From Sedimenticola sp. (GTDB lineage Bacteria; Pseudomonadota; Gammaproteobacteria; Chromatiales; Chromatiaceae): a stretch of DNA of 42,651 nucleotides. A model generated the notes under the pieces. It had not been told where the DNA came from and did no database searches. It worked only from the letters and a program-made list of their open reading frames with translations. Positions within the stretch are counted from its first letter, which is position 1; every line of letters begins with the position of its first letter. The position numbers were made by a program, and so were the translations under genes. This document shows, piece after piece, positions 22,329-42,540 of this stretch. Where the stretch lies: NCBI GenBank assembly GCA_026984055.1, contig JALSSX010000224.1, positions 1 to 42,651 on the forward strand. The letters run 5' to 3'.

Positions 22329-22459
22329 TCGCTCCCAACTTGGCATCGGCTATTTAGCTCCTGTTTTTATTCGATTTCAGTAATTTTTGTAACGATTTAT
22401 CTTGCGACAAGGGAGCGATAGCCGAACCGAATTATCTTTAATCAGTAAGTATTGCCCAA
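22329..22459. other. AT-rich leader upstream of the AT-hook gene
   Basis: This AT-rich 130-bp stretch probably contains the promoter of the gene at 22506. No well-spaced -35/-10 pair stands out. TCGCTCCC and GGGAGCGA, and ATCGGCTAT and ATAGCCG, occur as inverted words, but their order would not allow a simple nested hairpin. Confidence 0.35.
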
Positions 22460-22491
22460 GGACGTGGGCTGGCGGTGGAATCGCCACGTCC
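22460..22491 (+). promoter_or_regulatory. Hairpin just upstream of a ribosome binding site
   Basis: GGACGTGG (22460-22467) pairs with CCACGTCC (22484-22491); an alternative inner stem GGCG/CGCC lies in the loop. The ribosome site GGGGAAGGTGG begins at the next base and ATG is at 22506. The hairpin may tune translation or be an RNA-binding site; no U-run follows, so it is not a typical terminator. Confidence 0.5.
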
Positions 22492-22505
22492 GGGGAAGGT
22501 GGATT

Positions 22506-22997
22506 ATGAAAAAACAGAACGACGTTGGAGACGTGGAAAACAGCGCACAAACGTCATCGTACGACCCTTTGTTGGAGGAGCGGAGTGATACTCCGCGTCG
22601 GGGGCGTCCGATTTCGATCGAGGTGCTGAAGAGGAAACTCGCGGAGGCCGAGCAACGCGCTGTGATCGAGCGAGACAAGCGAAGGACGCAGGTGGCGCAA
22701 GCGCGTGACAAAGCCGCGCGTGCTGTCGCCGAGAAAATGGTGATGCGTGGCGAGTTGGCCGAGATCCGGCGAGAGCTGGCGGCGATTACCCGGCAATGGG
22801 CGGCAGAGAAAAAGGAAGCCGCGCGCGCTGCCAAGAAGGAAGCTGCCTGGGAGATTGCGCTAGAACGGTTTCGTCGCCGCTGGGACAAGGAATACCAGGA
22901 AAAAGAAGCGCGCGCGCACAAGCGGGGACCTGGTCGGCCAAGGAAACGTGGGCGTCCGAAAGGTTCGCGGAACAAGCCGAAGACATCTTCGGACTGA
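22506..22997 (+). CDS. AT-hook coiled-coil protein, putative DNA-binding
   Basis: This 163-residue highly charged protein has three parts. The N-terminus carries a GRP core in PRRGRPISIEVLKRKLAEAE (about 31-50). The middle, about residues 38-135, is a continuous Ala/Glu/Arg/Lys helix that looks like a coiled coil. The C-terminus is KRGPGRPRKRGRPKGSRNK (139-157), containing two AT-hook GRP cores of the kind that bind the minor groove of AT-rich DNA. It has no signal peptide. It could be a nucleoid-associated or silencing protein, comparable in style to AlgP/H1-like proteins, but I cannot assign a family. ATG 22506 follows GGAAGGTGG. The open frame begins earlier at 22452, but that part overlaps the hairpin. 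Confidence 0.78.
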   Translation: MKKQNDVGDVENSAQTSSYDPLLEERSDTPRRGRPISIEVLKRKLAEAEQRAVIERDKRRTQVAQARDKAARAVAEKMVMRGELAEIRRELAAITRQWAAEKKEAARAAKKEAAWEIALERFRRRWDKEYQEKEARAHKRGPGRPRKRGRPKGSRNKPKTSSD

Positions 22998-24647: not shown

Positions 24648-24715
24648 GGCCAAGGCTTGACAGATAGGATATGGCGCACAGGGACGTGCCTGAACGAATT
24701 CAAGAGGGTGTGATC

Positions 24716-25465
24716 ATGAAGAAACTTGCAATTGTCGTAGCCTTGGCCGCGTTGGGGAGTGTAAATACCGCCAACGCGTGGTGGGGTAATGATGGCTGGG
24801 GTAACAACGGCTGGGGTAACGGTTGGGGTGATGGTGCCTTGGATGGCTCCATGAGCTTCAGCTTCAGTGGTCGCGCCCATGGCAATGCCTATGGCTCTGG
24901 TTATAATGGCTGGGATGGGTATGGCTACGATGCGCCTTACTGGGGTTATGCGCCATATCCCTATGTGATGGCTCCCGTGGTGGCTCCGGCTGTTGCCACG
25001 CCACAATTGACGGAAGAGCAGAAAGATACGCTTCAGGAGCAGGCTAAGGCTTACCAGGAGGCGCAAGCGAAGGCCTACCAGGCAGCCGTCGAAGCGCAGC
25101 GCAAGATGGCAGAGCAGATGACATTGGCGGCGCCTGTCGTCCGCGCGCCGGTAGCGCCGCAATTCACGCCACCTGTGATGCCACAGCCCCCGGCAATGCC
25201 AAGGTTCACGCCACCTCCGATGCTGGACTTCGCGCGGATGGCGCCGCCGACTCCTCCGGAGATGCCGGATTTTTCAGCGGAGATGGCCAAGGCCCAGGCA
25301 GAACGTGATGCCATGTTGAAGGACATGCAGGCGCGCCAAGCCAAGGCAATGGCGGAGATGGAAGCACGCCGCGCAGAAATGGAGAAGAAAATGGAAGCCG
25401 CGCGCAAGGCGGCGTTCGAGCAACGGACCGTCTCTGCCGACGCAAACGGAAATTGCAGCAGTTGA
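24716..25465 (+). CDS. Sulfur globule-type protein with long coiled-coil extension
   Basis: This 249-residue exported protein has a signal peptide (MKKLAIVVALAALGSVNTANA), then an SGP-like start ([40 protein letters not shown], residues 21-67) and a Tyr/Pro stretch to about 95. It differs from typical SgpA/B proteins in what follows: a helix of about 98-137 (LTEEQKDTLQEQAKAYQEAQ), a Pro/Met-rich linker (about 140-183) and a second charged Ala/Met/Glu helix (186-236, AEMEARRAEMEKKMEAARK). It may tether the globule envelope or make a layer between globule and membrane. Coiled-coil globule proteins are known in purple sulfur bacteria, but this one-chain combination is unusual to me. ATG 24716 follows AGAGGGTG; the terminator at 25481 ends the operon. 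Confidence 0.78.
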   Translation: MKKLAIVVALAALGSVNTANAWWGNDGWGNNGWGNGWGDGALDGSMSFSFSGRAHGNAYGSGYNGWDGYGYDAPYWGYAPYPYVMAPVVAPAVATPQLTEEQKDTLQEQAKAYQEAQAKAYQAAVEAQRKMAEQMTLAAPVVRAPVAPQFTPPVMPQPPAMPRFTPPPMLDFARMAPPTPPEMPDFSAEMAKAQAERDAMLKDMQARQAKAMAEMEARRAEMEKKMEAARKAAFEQRTVSADANGNCSS

Positions 25466-34598: not shown

Positions 34599-35420
34599 AT
34601 GACGCGAGATGAAGCATCCTTCAATGCACGTTGGTGGCGGGTGCCGGTGGTGATCTTGCTAGGCGTGGCCGCGTTGGTTGCGCTATCCAGCGGCATCGCG
34701 AGTCTTTTGAGCGTGGGACCGCGTGGCCTGCTGGAACGTTGGGACAGCAGTGGCGGGGTCGGTTCGGCGGCGGAATGGCGGGGCGCCATGCGCCTGCTGG
34801 ATCTGGCGGCCAAGCTGAATCCCCTCGATGCTTCCATTCCGTTCGATCAAGGGCGCTTTCATCATTGGCGCGCGGCGGAGTTCGATCTGCTCGACGCGCG
34901 CCGGCACCGTGAATTGGTGCTCGCCGAGCGCGACTACCGGCGGGCATTGTCGCTACGACCGAAATGGGCGTTGGCCTGGGTGTATCTGGCCGATGTCTTG
35001 ACGCTTGACCGACGGCTGTCGAAGGGTGGCTTGGCGGCATTACGCGAGGTGCTGGCGATCGATCCCTACGGTACCTACGCCACGCAGCGGGCCTTGGAAC
35101 TGAGCGCAATGGGCTGGCGGCTGCTGTCCGCCGATGAACGTTGCCGCATCGCTGGTATCATCGCCTATCGGGACGCCTGGAAGGGTAGTTGGTCGTCCAT
35201 TGACGACGATGCGCGTGAAAGGGTGATGCGCCATCTGCCGAAGGGCGCCCTGGATGCGCGACGCTTGGCGGGCATAACCGCCTGGCTGGTCACGTGGCAA
35301 CAGCGCTACAACGCCGCCTCGTTCATCGACAAGCTGCGCATCGGCTTTGCGCGCCGCGAGCGCTTTCTGGATGAACGCTATTGTTCGACGCGGAGACTGT
35401 CCGATGCCGAAAACCGATGA
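34599..35420 (+). CDS. Membrane-anchored TPR-like protein of polysaccharide locus
   Basis: This 273-residue protein has one N-terminal membrane helix (about residues 13-37, VPVVILLGVAALVALSSGIA), then a periplasmic helical part with TPR-like pairs (AMRLLDLAAKLNPLDASIPFD; LAERDYRRALSLRPKWALAW) and a longer helical tail. The placement directly before a Wzy/WaaL-type gene, with a 17-nt overlap, suggests a role in polysaccharide assembly or chain control. I cannot give a family name with confidence. ATG 34599 (MTRDEASFNARW) is the first start after cysS; the frame is open upstream inside cysS but that is a shadow. Confidence 0.78.
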   Translation: MTRDEASFNARWWRVPVVILLGVAALVALSSGIASLLSVGPRGLLERWDSSGGVGSAAEWRGAMRLLDLAAKLNPLDASIPFDQGRFHHWRAAEFDLLDARRHRELVLAERDYRRALSLRPKWALAWVYLADVLTLDRRLSKGGLAALREVLAIDPYGTYATQRALELSAMGWRLLSADERCRIAGIIAYRDAWKGSWSSIDDDARERVMRHLPKGALDARRLAGITAWLVTWQQRYNAASFIDKLRIGFARRERFLDERYCSTRRLSDAENR

Positions 35421-36729
35421 CCGCCACGCGATCTGGCTGCTGCTTGGGCTGCTGTTCGCGATGCCGTTTCCATTGGGCGCGAATCGGCCGGCGATCTGGT
35501 GGTTCTTCGAACTGGCGTTGATTCTGCTGGCTGCCTGGATTCCATTGCGTCGCATGGAGCTGCTCCAGCGGGTCATGGCCTCTGGCGATGCTTTTCGCTG
35601 GCTATTGCCAGCATGTCTTCTGTGGCTGGTATTGCAGATCGTGCTCGGCTTGTTCGCGCCCGGCGTCAATCTGAATCGGAATGCACTCGTCGGTGCCGAA
35701 CTGCTTGCGCTCACTGGGTTTTGCGTGCTGTTCGTCAGCTTCATGCTGTTTCGTTCCTCCGATGACATGCGCGCTTTTGCCTGGATGCTGGTCGTGCTCG
35801 GTGGCGCGCAGGCGGTCATCGGGCTGCTTACCTACAATGATCTTTCGCTCGGCATCTGGGGCGGGCGATCCGATGGCTTCTTCACGGCGAAGGGGACTTA
35901 TCCAAACTACAACCATTTCGCCGGTCTGCTGGAGATGTGCCTGCCTTTTAGCGTGGTTACCCTTGTACGGCAGTTCGTCGATGGCCGGCTGTTCATCTCT
36001 TTTCGCGGTTTGGCGAGCATCGCCGCGGTGTTGCTGATGCTCGTCGCGCTGGTCCTGAGTGGCTCGCGCGCTGGCGTGATGGCTTTCTTCGTCGCCAGCG
36101 GGATGGTTATTCCCTTGTGGGTCCGCGCTTATCGACAACGTCATTCCGCGAAGACAGGTGGGCGCCGTTGGCTTTTCCTCGCAGGCGCCGTGGTTTCGAT
36201 CAGCTTGCTGGTGGCGTTGTTTCAGGGTGATCTGCTCTACCGCTTGGCGACCCGGGGGAGTAATTCGATTCGTCCGGCATTGTGGGGCGATATGATCGCG
36301 GCGTTCCATCGGCACCCCTGGCTGGGGAATGGGGCGGGGGTCTTCGGTGATATTGCCCCGTTGTACAAGAGCTGGCTGTTGTCGATGCTGGATTTTCGCT
36401 ATGCGCATAACGACTATCTCTCCTGGCTGATCGAGAATGGTCTGCCGATGACCTTGCTGCTATTGCTGATCGTCGCGTATCCGGCTTGGCGCTTGGCGCG
36501 TTACCTGTGGCGTGGCGAACAGTCGATCGCGCGCTGGCTTTATGGTGTGGCGGCGCTCTGGGCGTTGTTCGGCCTGGGTATCCATGCTGTGTTTGATTTC
36601 AACTTCCATATTCCCGCCAACGCGGCCTTGTTCATGGCCATCCTGGGCATCGGAATGAGCCTGAGCCATGGATGGCGCAAGGCGCCACGTGGACGTCGGC
36701 GCCGGGCCGTCCCCGCAGAAGACGCCTGA
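35404..36729 (+). CDS. O-antigen ligase/polymerase family protein (Wzy_C/WaaL type), first copy
   Basis: This 441-residue integral membrane protein has about 11-12 hydrophobic segments and a large periplasmic loop with RPALWGDMIAAFHRHPWLGNGAGVF and the end motif AHNDYLSWLIENGLP, both typical of the Wzy_C domain. Such proteins polymerise repeat units on undecaprenyl diphosphate or ligate glycans to lipid A or proteins; sequence alone does not separate these roles. ATG 35404 overlaps the preceding gene. A basic tail (APRGRRRRAVPAEDA) ends the protein. Confidence 0.88.
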   Translation: MPKTDDRHAIWLLLGLLFAMPFPLGANRPAIWWFFELALILLAAWIPLRRMELLQRVMASGDAFRWLLPACLLWLVLQIVLGLFAPGVNLNRNALVGAELLALTGFCVLFVSFMLFRSSDDMRAFAWMLVVLGGAQAVIGLLTYNDLSLGIWGGRSDGFFTAKGTYPNYNHFAGLLEMCLPFSVVTLVRQFVDGRLFISFRGLASIAAVLLMLVALVLSGSRAGVMAFFVASGMVIPLWVRAYRQRHSAKTGGRRWLFLAGAVVSISLLVALFQGDLLYRLATRGSNSIRPALWGDMIAAFHRHPWLGNGAGVFGDIAPLYKSWLLSMLDFRYAHNDYLSWLIENGLPMTLLLLLIVAYPAWRLARYLWRGEQSIARWLYGVAALWALFGLGIHAVFDFNFHIPANAALFMAILGIGMSLSHGWRKAPRGRRRRAVPAEDA

Positions 36730-36742
36730 GCACCGGCCGAGC

Positions 36743-37990
36743 ATGCGCGGGATACACGCCCTGTTATCGCGTAGCGCCGTCGCCCAGGGGTTGTTCAGCC
36801 TGGTCAACCTGGGGTTGTCGGTGTTTGTCTTGATGACCGCCTCTAAGGTGGATTTCGGACGTTACACCCTGGTGCTGGCGGCGGTGGTGTTCTTTGTCGC
36901 CATTGCGAGTTCGCTGATCTATCTGCAATTGCCGATGTGGCGTCGCGGCGGGCACAATCAGGCGTGCTATTTCGCCACGCTGTATCGTCTGTTGATGCAT
37001 GTCGCATGGGCGTTGGCTGCGGCGGTGGCGGTGTTTGCCGGTATCGCGATGGTTCTCGGCTGGCTGGGTCCGCGTGCCGCGTCCCTGACATGTATCGGCG
37101 GTTTGTTGACATTGGCTTATGTCCGCGCGGAGTTCATCAAACAGATGCTCTATGTGCTCGAAGACGTGGCTGCGGTGGTGCGTGTCAATCTGCGCCTGGC
37201 GCTTGGCGTGGGGTCGGGTTGCGGGGCGACGTTGTTGTCTGGGACGGATGAGGTCTTGTTTTCCGTTCTGCTGATATTCTCTCTGGGGCTGTGGCTCTGC
37301 GTGGCAGGTAAGGGGGCGGAGCAACTGAAGTCGTGTCCCCCGGGCAGGCTTCGGGATATGGCGGCGCGGGTCTGGCGTCCCGGGCGCTGGGCCTTGATGA
37401 ATGCATTGTTCGTCTGGCTACCCTCCCAGGGTTACCTCTATCTGTTGGGCGCGGTCGCGGGTCTGGGCACGGTTGCGGAGGTAGGCGCGGCGCGTAACGT
37501 CGTCGCGCCATTGCAAGTCCTTGCGACGAGTTTTCAGCAGGTGGTGTTGCCGCGTTTGGCTACGTTGGGCGATGATGCCATCCGACGCGTGAATCGCATC
37601 CGTCACGATGTGCTGCGCACCCTGCTACTGATCTTCTCCGGCTATGTGTTGCTGCTCTATCTGCTGCAGCCGATGGCGGTCGATTATCTGCTCGCCGAGC
37701 GTGGCTATGCGGCGTTTGAACGCTATGTCGGCTTGTGGGTTCTGGTGACGACAACGACGGTGTATCGCAGTAATCTGGCGGTCATCTATCAGGCATTGAA
37801 CCGCTACGATCTGATTGCCAGACTGGGGCTTGCCTATGCGATCGCGGCAAGCCTGCTGTTTGCCGTGATGATTCCGTTCTGGGGTGGCAGCGGCGCGTTG
37901 CTCGGGTTGGCCTTGGCGGAAGGGGTGTTTGTGATACTGTTGCGTAGTCGACTGCGAGCGGAACAACGACTGACGGCATGGGAATGGTAA
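36743..37990 (+). CDS. Polysaccharide flippase (Wzx/MATE-like superfamily)
   Basis: This 415-residue protein has about 12 predicted membrane helices, starting LLSRSAVAQGLFSLVNLGLSVFVLMTASKVDFGRYTLVL, which is the usual N-terminal pattern of Wzx-type oligosaccharide flippases (MVF/PST superfamily). It likely moves lipid-linked repeat units across the inner membrane. ATG 36743 (MRGIHALLSRS) is 13 bp after the previous stop; an in-frame ATG at 36668 would add 25 hydrophilic residues inside the previous gene. It overlaps the next gene by 13 nt. Confidence 0.85.
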   Translation: MRGIHALLSRSAVAQGLFSLVNLGLSVFVLMTASKVDFGRYTLVLAAVVFFVAIASSLIYLQLPMWRRGGHNQACYFATLYRLLMHVAWALAAAVAVFAGIAMVLGWLGPRAASLTCIGGLLTLAYVRAEFIKQMLYVLEDVAAVVRVNLRLALGVGSGCGATLLSGTDEVLFSVLLIFSLGLWLCVAGKGAEQLKSCPPGRLRDMAARVWRPGRWALMNALFVWLPSQGYLYLLGAVAGLGTVAEVGAARNVVAPLQVLATSFQQVVLPRLATLGDDAIRRVNRIRHDVLRTLLLIFSGYVLLLYLLQPMAVDYLLAERGYAAFERYVGLWVLVTTTTVYRSNLAVIYQALNRYDLIARLGLAYAIAASLLFAVMIPFWGGSGALLGLALAEGVFVILLRSRLRAEQRLTAWEW

Positions 37991-39249
37991 ACGGCGAAGG
38001 TTGGCGTGGCGCCGATATCGGTAATCCAATCATCATCCTGGTATTGCTCACCTCGTTACTTGGAGCCTGGCCGGGACGGATCTCGCTCGGTGGCATATCG
38101 ATGCTCGGTCTGTTGTCCGGAGTGATGGCGGTGCTCGTGGCGCTGGCGGTGATGACCAGCCCCGTTGTGGGCCGGGTGACCCGACGGGTCGTGGGTTTTC
38201 TCTTGCTGTTCTGGTTGTTCGATCTGGCAGGTTTCGCCTGGCAGGATGTCAGCATGGCGGTGTTGCAGGACAACGTCATCTGGGCCGGGTTTCTGTTCAC
38301 TATCGTACTGTCGGTACATGTCGCCGCGCTCGAACCGCGAATCGTGCAAACCCTGGTGAATTTCAAGTGGCTGGTAGTAGTGGTGATCATCACTTATATG
38401 TTGGTCGATCTGGCCTTGTCGATCGAAGATGCCGCGGTACCGCTGCTGGCGCTGTGGGCGACTAGTCAGTTACTTGCCGATTGGCGGCTGCGCAGGGGAA
38501 TGGATATCCTTGCGCTGGTGGTGATTCTGCTTGGCATGGCCTTGCTCGGCGCGCGCATCACGCTGGGAGCGGTATTGCTGATGTTCTTTTTCATTCAGCT
38601 TGTCGAAACGAAACGGTTGAATGTTGTGATGCGATTGCGCCGTAGTGTACTGGCGATCGCGACCATCCTGACCCTGTTCGTGTTGATCTATGTGTATGTG
38701 AGCCAGTTTCGCAGCGCCTTTCTGATGGGCGATCAGGCGCTGACGATAGGCGGTATCACGATCAATACCTCGGGTCGCTGGTATTGGTGGAATGTGGTGT
38801 ACAGCTACGCGGTGGACCGGCCTTTCCTAGGTTGGGGCATGGATGTGCCCGTGGAGATGGAAAGCGTTACCGGCTGGGCGCACCCGCACAACGATTATCT
38901 ACGCATCTTCCATCACCTGGGCTTGGTTGGCTTGGTGTTGTGGATGTTGTTCTATTATCGGGCCTGGCGCCTGTTGTTGGAGATGTCGCGCTATCTGTGG
39001 GCGATTGGCCGCGATAGCTCCGAGGCAAGTATCGTGTATTCGGCTTTTCTGTTTCTTTCCTCGGTTGCGATCACGATGGTCACCGACAATACCATCGTGT
39101 ACAGCTTCATCATGTATCCGCTCGGGGTCTATGTCGGCTTGTCGCTTGGCATCATGGACAGGTACGAGTCTGCTCGCGCGGCCAGCGGGGAGGATGAGAG
39201 ATTGACGGAGCGATATGCTCATGGCCAGTCGGGCGTTGGGTATGACTGA
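37978..39249 (+). CDS. O-antigen ligase/polymerase family protein (Wzy_C/WaaL type), second copy
   Basis: This 423-residue membrane protein has about 11 hydrophobic segments and the Wzy_C pattern GRWYWWNVVYSYAVDRPFLGWG followed by AHPHNDYLRIFHHLGLVGLV. It differs widely from the copy at 35404, so the two probably have separate roles (polymerase and ligase). It overlaps the flippase gene by 13 nt and has a hydrophilic C-terminal tail. A 126-bp gap then separates it from the glycosyltransferase. Confidence 0.87.
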   Translation: MGMVNGEGWRGADIGNPIIILVLLTSLLGAWPGRISLGGISMLGLLSGVMAVLVALAVMTSPVVGRVTRRVVGFLLLFWLFDLAGFAWQDVSMAVLQDNVIWAGFLFTIVLSVHVAALEPRIVQTLVNFKWLVVVVIITYMLVDLALSIEDAAVPLLALWATSQLLADWRLRRGMDILALVVILLGMALLGARITLGAVLLMFFFIQLVETKRLNVVMRLRRSVLAIATILTLFVLIYVYVSQFRSAFLMGDQALTIGGITINTSGRWYWWNVVYSYAVDRPFLGWGMDVPVEMESVTGWAHPHNDYLRIFHHLGLVGLVLWMLFYYRAWRLLLEMSRYLWAIGRDSSEASIVYSAFLFLSSVAITMVTDNTIVYSFIMYPLGVYVGLSLGIMDRYESARAASGEDERLTERYAHGQSGVGYD

Positions 39250-39375
39250 TCTGGTGACTGAATAGATGGTCTTCAGGATTCCAAGAATGATTCGGATCAA
39301 GGTATCGCTTGCGGCCAAGAGTCATGCCGTTGGCAACGGTGATAATGCCGATCGAATGTTTGATTGGCCGGGGCC

Positions 39376-40578
39376 ATGACCTCTTCCGATATGTCTTTCG
39401 ATCAGTGGCGGCGTTTTCTGGTCATCGAAGGTTGTGATTACGAAAACTGTCCTCCGGGCGGTCAACTGAACTTTGCGCGGCAATTGGTCGGCCAGTATCG
39501 TCGCGAGGTTGCGTTGGTTGGGGTGACCTCGGATCCCGCGTTGGCTATCGGCCGGTGGGGTGTCAAAATTGTCGCTGGCGTGGCCGTGCCCTTTCTCCCG
39601 TTCAGGCGGCGCTCTTGTGGTGGTGAACGATCCTTGGTGCCGGAACGTCTGAAGGACTATCTGGCATTGCGCAAACATCGAGATGCCATCCTGGCGACAC
39701 CCATGCGTGATGTATTCATTCAGTCCCCCGAGGTGTTGATGGCGGTATCGGGTTGGGGTTGGAAGAGTTTGTGCTACCTGTTTTCCGGAGTTGAGAACCC
39801 GCTGGCCATGTCACGCTATCGCTGGAGCGGACTGGTGGCGCGCGCCTTCGACCGACGCTTCTTTCATGCACTGCAAACCGCCGAACCGATACTTGCCGCC
39901 GCCGACCGAGAGGCGATCGAAGAACTGACGCGGCGTGGCGCCGGCCTGCTGAGCGGAGCGGGAATCACCTCTTTTCCTACCCGCGTGGACAATGAGGTGT
40001 TCCGCCCGAAATCCCGGCAGGTGGTCGAGCAGGCACTCGGCATCGTGGATGGCGCGCCATTATTGCTCTGCTGCGGGAGAATCAGCCGGGAAAAAGGCTG
40101 GGAGTTGATATTGGCGGCATTCGCGCATTTTCTGCCAGATCATCCCGGATCCCGGCTGTGTTTCGTAGGTGACGGCGAGGACCGGGCGGCGTTGCAGGCC
40201 GCCATCGCGAAAAGGGGGTTATCGCGGCAGGCCTGGATCGTTGGTCTGCAATCGCCCGACGCGGTCTCGGATTGGATGAACCGCGCGGATCTTGTAATAT
40301 CGGGATCGTACCGGGAAGGCTGGCCGACAGTCGTCCTGGAAGCGCTGGCCTGTGGCAAGGCCGTGGTTTCGACCCGGGTCAGCGGGATAGGCGACATGAT
40401 CATGGAAGGCGAGAACGGCTATATTGTGACATCACGAAACCCTCGGGAGTTCGCCGAGGCGATGAGGCGGGCGCTACGTCTTCGAGACCCCGCAACGATA
40501 TCGCAGTCGATTGCGTCCCGTTATGCGCTGACGTCGCTGAAGCGCGACCTCGACCGCCTGTGGCTGAGAGCAGGATGA
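39376..40578 (+). CDS. Glycosyltransferase family 4 protein
   Basis: This 400-residue GT-B enzyme has an N-terminal acceptor domain (FLVIEGCDYENCPPGGQLNFARQLV) and a GT4 donor domain: LLLCCGRISREKGWELILAAF, RLCFVGDGEDRAAL, WMNRADLVISGSYREGWPTV with the E-x7-E motif (EGWPTVVLEALACGKAVV), and NGYIVTSRNPREFAEAMR. It would add a sugar from a nucleotide donor to a lipid-linked acceptor on the cytoplasmic side. ATG 39376 (MTSSDMSFDQWRR) is chosen; an alternative TTG at 39364 is possible. It converges on the AAA+/transposase-like gene, with 19 bp between their ends. Confidence 0.9.
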   Translation: MTSSDMSFDQWRRFLVIEGCDYENCPPGGQLNFARQLVGQYRREVALVGVTSDPALAIGRWGVKIVAGVAVPFLPFRRRSCGGERSLVPERLKDYLALRKHRDAILATPMRDVFIQSPEVLMAVSGWGWKSLCYLFSGVENPLAMSRYRWSGLVARAFDRRFFHALQTAEPILAAADREAIEELTRRGAGLLSGAGITSFPTRVDNEVFRPKSRQVVEQALGIVDGAPLLLCCGRISREKGWELILAAFAHFLPDHPGSRLCFVGDGEDRAALQAAIAKRGLSRQAWIVGLQSPDAVSDWMNRADLVISGSYREGWPTVVLEALACGKAVVSTRVSGIGDMIMEGENGYIVTSRNPREFAEAMRRALRLRDPATISQSIASRYALTSLKRDLDRLWLRAG

Positions 40579-40597: not shown

Positions 40598-42247
40598 TCA
40601 GGCGTTGGACACCGCATCCTTGTCGTTCGTCAGCAGCGAAAGATAGGGCGTGGCCTCCCATTCTTCTTGTTCCAGGCGCATCAGTGCCGCGGCAAACAAA
40701 TGTTTCCGCGAGCTTTGCGAGGGAAGGGGCGTGACGCTCTCCAGGTTCTTGCTGATATCTTGCAACACCTGCCGGAACGCACCGGCTGATTTGATCTGTT
40801 TTCTCAGCGCCGCCGGATGATCGTAGTAGGCAAGTGATTCATGCGCGTAGCTTGCCAGCAGGGTTGCGGCCTGAGTCAGATTCATCGCGGCCAGCTCCTG
40901 GAAAATCTCGTCCGCCTTGCTTGCCGCCATGTAGGAATCACTCTGCGCGTGGATGACCTTCAGCAGAATCTTCACTTGGGGTTGCTGTTCGTTGGGTACC
41001 TTCGCGAGTATCTCGTGGTAGTAGATATCCAGATCTCGCTGCCAGTTGGCGCTGGGGAAGAGGTCCATGATATCGCCGATCAGCTCGTCGGAGGCGTCGC
41101 AGATGAAAAGCTGAGTGTTGTTCAGACCGCGGTCGGCCAGGTTGCGCAACAGCCGTCCCCACCCATGGTTCCTGTCGGGAGTACCCTGTTGGATACCAAG
41201 GACTTTGCGGTAGCCATGGCTGTCGATGCCGAAGGCGGTGAGCAGGGAATCGCACTGCGCGTTGTTTTGTGCTTGCGGGCACTCCAGCCGGACCAGGAAT
41301 ACATAGCGAAAATCCTCGTCTAGCGAGCGACTCAACCAAGCCGACAAGTCGGCGTCCTCCTGATTTACGCCGACTTTTGAAAGGTTTCCCGACGGCGAGG
41401 ATGTGTACAGGCCGGAGCCGGATGCGTCCTGGGTAGCGGCGGGTAACGTGTCGCTCCTGTCGCGCAGCACGCTGTTGACGATGGAGGCGTCCACCTGCTT
41501 CTTTTCTTCCGCGAAGGCGTAGATCAGCGCGGTATCGCAGATCAGGTTGATGACTCGGGGCGTCCCCTTGCTTGCCTGATAGATCAGCGGGAAGGTATCG
41601 TCGGCAAAGAGTGCTGGGTCGCCTCCAGCCAGTTCCAGGCGGTGGCGGATATAGTTTTGGCTTTCCGCCGCGCTGAGCGGGCCGAGGTGAAAATTCACCG
41701 CGATGCGTTGCGTGAACTGCGCCAGATCGGGATGGCTGAGCTTGTCCCGCAGCTGAGGCTGCCCGATCAGTATGATCTGCAATACCATATTCTTGTCGGC
41801 ATTGATATTCGACAGCATGCGAAGCTCTTCCAGGGTGTCGATATCCAGATTCTGGGCTTCGTCGACGATCAGGATGACATGGTGATTCCGCGAGTACTCG
41901 TCGATGAGGAACTGGGTGAAGGCTTCGAAAAGCGCAACCCGCGAGGTCTCCTGGTAGGGTTGGCCTAGGGCCAACATGACCCACTGGAGTAATTCGTCGG
42001 GACCCGTGTGGGTATTGTTCATCAGGCCAACGGTGAGATTCTTGGGGATCTCGTTGAGCAGGTGACGAACGAGGGTGGTTTTACCGCAGCCGATCTCGCC
42101 GGTGACGACGGTGAAACCCGCTTGGTGCAGCAGCCCGTACTCCAACATGGAGTACGCCAGGCTATGCTTTTCACCAAGGTATAGCATGGTGGGGTCGGGA
42201 AGAAGGGAGAAGGGTTTTTCCTTGAGTCCGAAGAATGCCTCATACAT
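40598..42247 (-). CDS. ExeA-type AAA+ ATPase fused to a dead IS256/Mutator transposase-like domain
   Basis: This 549-residue protein has two clear parts. Residues 1-265 are an ExeA/GspA-like AAA+ ATPase: start MYEAFFGLKEKPFSLLPDP, Walker A GEIGCGKTT (50-58), Walker B VILIVDEAQ (124-132), sensor-1 region LQIILIGQPQLRDKL, and GTPRVINLICD (228-238). After a Ser/Gly linker (about 266-299), residues about 300-540 follow an IS256-type transposase almost from end to end: LSAWLSRSLDEDFRYVFLV, AFGIDSHGYRKVLGIQQG, WGRLLRNLADRGLNNTQLFICDA (Asp384), DLFPSANWQRDLDIYYHEIL, AKVPNEQQPQVKILLKVIHAQ and ALMRLEQEEWEATPYLSL. Catalytic residues are largely lost: the first Asp is replaced near 318-320, WQRC..H reads WQRDLDIYY, and the Glu of NPIERLN is replaced near 491. 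A strong AGGAGG precedes ATG 42247. It may be an ATP-driven regulator or assembly factor linked to polysaccharide export. Confidence 0.85.
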   Translation of the reverse strand: MYEAFFGLKEKPFSLLPDPTMLYLGEKHSLAYSMLEYGLLHQAGFTVVTGEIGCGKTTLVRHLLNEIPKNLTVGLMNNTHTGPDELLQWVMLALGQPYQETSRVALFEAFTQFLIDEYSRNHHVILIVDEAQNLDIDTLEELRMLSNINADKNMVLQIILIGQPQLRDKLSHPDLAQFTQRIAVNFHLGPLSAAESQNYIRHRLELAGGDPALFADDTFPLIYQASKGTPRVINLICDTALIYAFAEEKKQVDASIVNSVLRDRSDTLPAATQDASGSGLYTSSPSGNLSKVGVNQEDADLSAWLSRSLDEDFRYVFLVRLECPQAQNNAQCDSLLTAFGIDSHGYRKVLGIQQGTPDRNHGWGRLLRNLADRGLNNTQLFICDASDELIGDIMDLFPSANWQRDLDIYYHEILAKVPNEQQPQVKILLKVIHAQSDSYMAASKADEIFQELAAMNLTQAATLLASYAHESLAYYDHPAALRKQIKSAGAFRQVLQDISKNLESVTPLPSQSSRKHLFAAALMRLEQEEWEATPYLSLLTNDKDAVSNA

Positions 42248-42540
42248 GTTTCAACCTCCTGTGTGGGCAACTATCCGTGCCGTGCCCGAAATCATGGCGT
42301 TATGGCACCCATGACGGATATTCACGGAACCCTCTGGCCGCAAGGAGTCCGCCAGTTCCTCCTTGCTTGCTTTATAGTCGACAGATGGCGTAATAGCTTG
42401 AAGAGCGAACCGCTGATCAGGTCAAGGCTCCAAGTATTGCATTGCGATCCCGCCACAATTCCCTACGCGGATAACCTTATGTTCGATAGGACTGATTGTC
42501 TCATGCCGGCATGCATCGGACAAGAGGAGGCATAAAGCTG
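42248..42540. other. Upstream region of the fusion gene, up to the right IS
   Basis: This 293-bp gap holds the ribosome site (CCTCCT at 42255-42260, minus-strand AGGAGG) and presumably the promoter of the fusion gene. A minus-strand TTGACC near 42415 is a possible -35 box, but no convincing -10 stands at standard spacing. No gene is seen; the short open frames here lack coding character. Confidence 0.4.

Follow-up and report, generated by a model that had tools for sequence, protein, structure and literature searches.

A predicted exopolysaccharide-locus AAA+ ATPase fused to a catalytically dead IS256 transposase core in Sedimenticola sp.

Closest described systems and the fusion

Bacterial transposases are mostly viewed as mobile cargo, and the domesticated examples known best remain in contact with nucleic acid. 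The XrtA/PEP-CTERM-type AAA+ ATPase normally works in exopolysaccharide/exosortase gene clusters, and no functional study of this exosortase-locus ATPase family was found in the papers searched. In transposition, the AAA+ ATPases IstB, TnsC and MuB act on DNA together with the DDE transposases of IS21, Tn7 and Mu (PMC11208146); in the IS21 system, IstA touches the AAA+ domain of its partner IstB through its DDE domain, and the triggering of ATP hydrolysis by IstB requires IstA (PMC11208146). Domesticated transposases and multi-domain AAA+ ATPases are both known kinds of protein.

The gene described here was found on the minus strand of the window (the whole stretch of 42,651 nucleotides analysed) and encoded 549 residues plus a stop, beginning with ATG (Table 1). 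It was compared with genomes of the same GTDB genus (G043 and G084; the window's own genome is G000) and of the same family (G012). The fusion resembled the XrtA/PEP-CTERM ATPase (TIGR03015) in the full-model alignment of its ATPase and in its Walker A and B motifs, with a possibly related EPS setting, but was a separate paralog with a score below the cut-off, a 250-residue transposase-derived extension and no exosortase gene in the window. With the GspA/ExeA ATPase it shared an AAA_22-type ATPase, but neither a transmembrane segment nor a peptidoglycan-binding domain. Similarity to IS256/Mutator transposases (PF00872, ISCth4) comprised the fold, 235 profile positions and the insertion domain, whereas Asp1, Glu3, the Cys, the His, the N-terminal DNA-binding domain and the terminal repeats were lacking and the domain was acidic. 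As in IstA-IstB, TnsB-TnsC and MuA-MuB, a DDE fold was paired with an AAA+ ATPase, but in one chain, with a transposase dead by sequence, in an EPS context and with an ATPase of another family. TldR, a domesticated dead transposon protein derived from TnpB, is likewise a bacterial transposon enzyme retained without its activity; the fusion differed from it in having a DDE fold instead of TnpB, and in evidence that points away from nucleic-acid binding. No description of an ATPase/dead-transposase fusion was found in open-licence papers, an absence that is weak evidence. As far as the searches reach, the use of a dead DDE core for an accessory domain on an exopolysaccharide ATPase, with two captures, is new.

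Table 1. Positions in the window of the fusion gene, its parts and its conserved neighbours
Feature	Position	Strand	Evidence
Fusion gene (ATPase + dead IS256 transposase)	40598..42247	-	Pfam and NCBIfam profiles; homologs in G043, G084
Ribosome-binding site AGGAGG, 7 nt before ATG	42255..42260	-	sequence
AAA+ ATPase domain, residues 1-265, TIGR03015-like, AAA_22	41453..42247	-	profiles, ATPase tree
Walker A GEIGCGKTT, residues 50-58	42074..42100	-	sequence motif
Walker B VILIVDE, residues 124-130	41858..41878	-	sequence motif
Variable linker, residues 266-299, 18% identical to G043	41351..41452	-	comparison with G043
Dead IS256/Mutator transposase core, residues 300-531, RNase H fold and all-helical insertion	40655..41350	-	profiles, model, Foldseek
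Val319 where catalytic Asp1 expected; Val also in G043	41291..41293	-	alignment
Asp384, kept catalytic Asp2; Glu in G043	41096..41098	-	alignment
Asp405, replaces Cys of WQRC..H; WQRD in 3/3 genus genomes	41033..41035	-	alignment
Arg492 where catalytic Glu3 expected; Arg in G043, Gln in G084	40772..40774	-	alignment
O-antigen ligase/polymerase (Wzy_C), conserved neighbour	35347..36729	+	profile, synteny
Wzx-like flippase, conserved neighbour	36668..37990	+	by eye, no Pfam match
Second Wzy_C protein, conserved neighbour	37978..39249	+	profile, synteny
Family-4-type glycosyltransferase, in G000 and G084, absent here in G043	39364..40578	+	profile, synteny

The ATPase and the transposase-derived half

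The ATPase domain aligned over the full length of the TIGR03015 model with both Walker motifs intact (residues 1-263; 291 bits, below the NCBIfam cut-off of 324.5), and Pfam matched AAA_22 at residues 42-170. A preliminary description had read the gene as an ATPase with intact Walker motifs joined to an IS256 core; its reading frame was exact, and the strong ribosome site that it noted was present. Its name for the ATPase, ExeA-type, did not hold: the protein had no hydrophobic or transmembrane segment (maximum KD19 1.04), a peptidoglycan-binding domain of the GspA/ExeA type gave no Pfam match in it, and the ATPase is better named an XrtA/PEP-CTERM-type (TIGR03015) paralog.

The C-terminal half matched Transposase_mut (PF00872; residues 296-531, E = 1.7e-30, 106.6 bits against a cut-off of 21) and the NCBIfam IS256 transposase (residues 281-523, E = 1.6e-31, below the equivalog cut-off), with 235 aligned profile positions that included the insertion domain. 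The run of IS256 motifs reported earlier was present (SRSLDE 306-311, WQRD 402-405, AKVP 415-418 and RLEQEEWE 524-531). The Pfam match began at profile position 143 of 379, with the ATPase in place of the missing N-terminal DNA-binding domain, as also proposed. A single-sequence IS256 query gave no match in viral contigs. Catalytic positions were read from an alignment of 18 rows, in which 16 IS256 transposases taken from viral contigs stood beside the window domain and its homolog in G084. The transposase rows had D, D, E and C..H throughout, except that one stopped before the Glu and one was disrupted there, whereas the window domain did not have a complete D-D-E triad (V319, D384, R492) and had Ile408 for the His of WQRC..H; the losses of the first Asp, the Cys, the His and the final Glu given in the preliminary description were thus all found. 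At the D1, D2, E3 and Cys positions G043 had Val, Glu, Arg and Asp, Asp384 being kept in two of the three genus genomes.

An AlphaFold2 model of the transposase domain built from the 18-row alignment had a mean pLDDT of 86.8 and a pTM of 0.84; the alignment consisted mostly of transposases and leans the model to a transposase fold. It replaced a model from two sequences only, which was unusable (pLDDT 38.8). The predicted topology was three strands, helix, strand, helix, strand, followed by an all-helical insertion and more helices. In the PDB, Foldseek ranked chains of the ISCth4 IS256 transposase in each of the first five places (query TM 0.72-0.79; E = 1.9e-12 to 1.5e-10), and the only solved structure matched by sequence was likewise an IS256-family transposase (6xg8/6xgw/6xgx; E = 4e-4 with the single sequence, 2.5e-9 by profile). 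The E-values, the fold match and the recurrence in other species exclude a chance match. No terminal inverted repeats flanked the gene; one chance-like 15-nt pair had both arms within it.

Recurrence, selection and a second capture

The transposase half was present in all three genomes of the genus, and the whole gene was assembled in two (G000 and G043). The fusion was complete in G043 (58% identity over 532 residues), where the Wzy_C/flippase/Wzy_C block likewise adjoined it. In G084, a MAG deposited as Sedimenticola sp. (JALULB010000400.1), identity was 91% over residues 367-549, to the contig edge, and the neighbours matched those in the window; only the C-terminal half lay on the contig, and the ATPase half was not in the assembly (62% complete). 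The polysaccharide surroundings noted earlier were shared within the genus. In the window the fusion gene was oriented opposite to the polysaccharide block. Two Wzy_C genes and a glycosyltransferase adjoined the fusion, and no exosortase gene was found in the window. A second ATPase of the fusion's subfamily was not detected in G000 or G043; in G043 the fusion was the only TIGR03015-type ATPase at E <= 1e-10, an XrtA-type paralog not being detected. Elsewhere in the window, a coiled-coil protein whose C-terminus carries AT-hook-like RGRP repeats (22452-22997) and, by eye, a small exported Gly/Trp/Pro-rich protein resembling a sulfur globule protein (24671-25465) were observed. The contig end (42500-42651) resembled the first part of an insertion sequence, with a ATGTCCCC-type end and a frame that begins VAEEQITMSHKEA; this element probably caused the contig break.

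A single-chain ATPase of transposition or transposon control (IstB/TniB/TnsC-like), serving a mobile element or anti-transposon immunity, would fit the AAA+/DDE partnership in IS21, Tn7 and Mu (PMC11208146) and a weak TniB match in G043 (E = 0.028), but catalytic residues and terminal repeats were lost, the ATPase nested within the EPS/exosortase ATPases and the polysaccharide synteny was conserved; such a role is very unlikely.

Between the window and G084, dN/dS of the transposase half was about 0.07-0.13 (183 transposase-domain codons; dN 0.039 and dS 0.54 by NG86; 0.046 and 0.357 by YN00), a value below 1 as the preliminary description had anticipated, and differences at codon positions 1, 2 and 3 were 7%, 3% and 25%. 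Between the window and G043, dN/dS was about 0.25 with dS saturated, and identity was 67.5% for the ATPase, 18% for the linker and 54% for the transposase domain. Conservation to G043 peaked away from the catalytic face, at 80% in helix B and at 71 and 86% in the helices of the insertion. No frame break occurred across the three genus genomes, and GC3 and codon use of both halves matched host genes. The transposase half is under purifying selection. A random insertion, which the preliminary description had also argued against, was rejected, as were a pseudogene and a mobile element, by dN/dS, host-like codon use and the missing terminal repeats; the fusion was conserved across the genus (transposase half in 3/3 genomes). 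Neither outcome that the preliminary description had named as refuting it, a missing Transposase_mut/IS256 match or a fusion found in no related genome, was observed.

The C-terminal half could instead be a neutral leftover of an IS256 insertion into the 3' end, its tail tolerated or acting as a passive stabiliser. Capture of an IS is the likely mechanism of birth, and the transposase domain evolved faster than the ATPase. Selection largely refutes such a leftover, however, with three genomes free of frame breaks and the low dN/dS against G084; the helices conserved to G043, the host-like codon use, the disappearance of flanking terminal inverted repeats and a parallel case with another transposase family (IS630) also make it quite unlikely.

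That parallel case, known from one genome (G012), was a fusion at L050:4067-5638 (G012:C92; also L017) whose ATPase belonged to the subfamily of the window fusion and was 56% identical to it. It lay in an EPS locus with an outer-membrane barrel, a Wzz-type chain-length protein and a tyrosine kinase; multihaem cytochromes were observed downstream. Its C-terminal domain had HTH_33 and DDE_3 similarity in IS630 order (E = 0.005 and 1e-4, below gathering) and matched genuine IS630 transposases of the order (E down to 1e-16), aligning with the greater part of them. Gly replaced the first Asp and Asn the second, the frame ended before the Glu of NPDE, and the IS630 N-terminal HTH was missing. In the ATPase tree the IS256 and IS630 fusions fell in separate supported clades, and constraining them together cost 64 log-likelihood units (p-AU 4.9e-13), with two changes needed. 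A single origin was rejected, and capture therefore happened twice. Samples of the class (369 genomes) and the phylum (398 genomes) contained many subfamily ATPases, and the long-frame matches examined among them included no further transposase fusion; some 15 long-frame ATPases of the order, considered as fusions, were rejected as ordinary ExeA-like or OmpA/tail types.

Subfamily relatives across Gammaproteobacteria sat after Wzz and a BY-type kinase, and several of their loci carried the exosortase XrtD (TIGR04152, 539-571 bits), a VPLPA-CTERM-like protein and a PrsT-like TPR protein. XrtD was present in G084; in G000 and G043 none was detected, and the fusion is therefore not dependent on XrtD. 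In G084, an XrtD/VPLPA locus with Wzz and kinase (L128; G084:C317) had no ATPase adjoining the kinase, and the only trace of a subfamily ATPase found was the C-terminal half of the fusion. The C-termini of the subfamily included short tails, TPR, a receiver-like domain (by eye, Pfam silent), coiled coil and OmpA, and this variety marks the C-terminus as a slot for swappable modules. The receiver-like domain (about 110 residues, motif PVLFND, no Pfam match) was seen in L054-L056, L059, L060, L062 and L063, and a TPR array occupied the slot in L053 (G372:C85). Neither the slot nor the independent IS630 fusion had been noticed in the preliminary description.

Charge reversal and the likely role of the module

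Net charge per 100 residues was -3.4 in the window domain and -5.6 in G043, against +3.7 in IS256 homologs (sd 1.4, n = 15, minimum +1.3), and was -1.9 in the G012 IS630 domain against +5.1 to +7.6 in IS630 homologs. The pI of both dead domains was 5.2-5.4, against 9-11 for transposases. With acidic charge in both captures, neither domain kept the basic character that a DNA-binding core should have. The preliminary description had proposed a transposase domesticated for binding and not for cutting; the loss of catalysis stood, but binding to DNA was not supported, given the acidic charge of all copies and the absent DNA-binding domain.

A transposase domain kept as a DNA-binding part, which would bring the ATPase ring to DNA or regulate the polysaccharide genes, is unlikely. 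Its ancestry, the action of IstB, TnsC and MuB on DNA with DDE transposases (PMC11208146) and the opposite orientation of the gene to the polysaccharide block are in its favour, and the acidic overall charge is compatible with DNA binding through the AAA+ ring. The main evidence that argues against it is the switch of both independent captures from a basic to an acidic charge, although a net charge is a rough guide and a basic patch may exist locally; the N-terminal DNA-binding domain was also missing in both captures, and the subfamily context is usually membrane and EPS assembly, not regulation. Retained RNA or nucleotide binding by the RNase H fold, as a sensor for the ATPase, would agree with the frequency of nucleic-acid binders among RNase H folds and with Asp384 in two of three genomes. 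The domain was acidic, however, two of its three metal-binding residues were lost and Asp384 was Glu in G043, and a sensor of this kind is very unlikely.

The reading preferred here (probability about 0.6) is that the fusion combines an exopolysaccharide/exosortase-locus AAA+ ATPase with a domesticated, dead IS256 core that most likely serves as an acidic protein-interaction module or a module tuning the ATP cycle. The identity of the module is well supported. The swappable C-terminal slot of the ATPase has been filled by a catalytically dead IS256 core that retains the predicted RNase H fold and helical insertion but no longer has the catalytic residues, its own N-terminal DNA-binding domain or a basic charge. 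We infer a protein-interaction or regulatory function, in which the module would not bind DNA, would have a partner and might affect ATP turnover. The acidic module may dock the ATPase onto a partner in the polysaccharide assembly machinery; alternatively, the C-terminal domain may contact the AAA+ ring and tune its ATP cycle, as active DDE domains do with AAA+ partners, for example IstA on IstB (PMC11208146). The IstA-IstB contact in IS21 makes an in-chain DDE/AAA+ contact plausible and is no proof of one in the fusion (PMC11208146). A wider version, in which DDE folds are recurrently recruited as in-chain AAA+ regulators since the DDE/AAA+ contact pre-exists, two families having independently become dead, acidic controllers of the ATP cycle of an exopolysaccharide/exosortase ATPase, is rather doubtful.

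It appears that an exopolysaccharide ATPase has taken up a dead DDE core as a common type of protein module, and that its subfamily has done so twice, from unrelated transposases. If confirmed, insertion sequences would be a source of ready-folded protein domains, with dead transposases apparently reusable as parts, and genomes could be searched with a simple signature, catalysis lost and charge reversed in parallel. The fusion also gives a handle on the exosortase-locus ATPase family.
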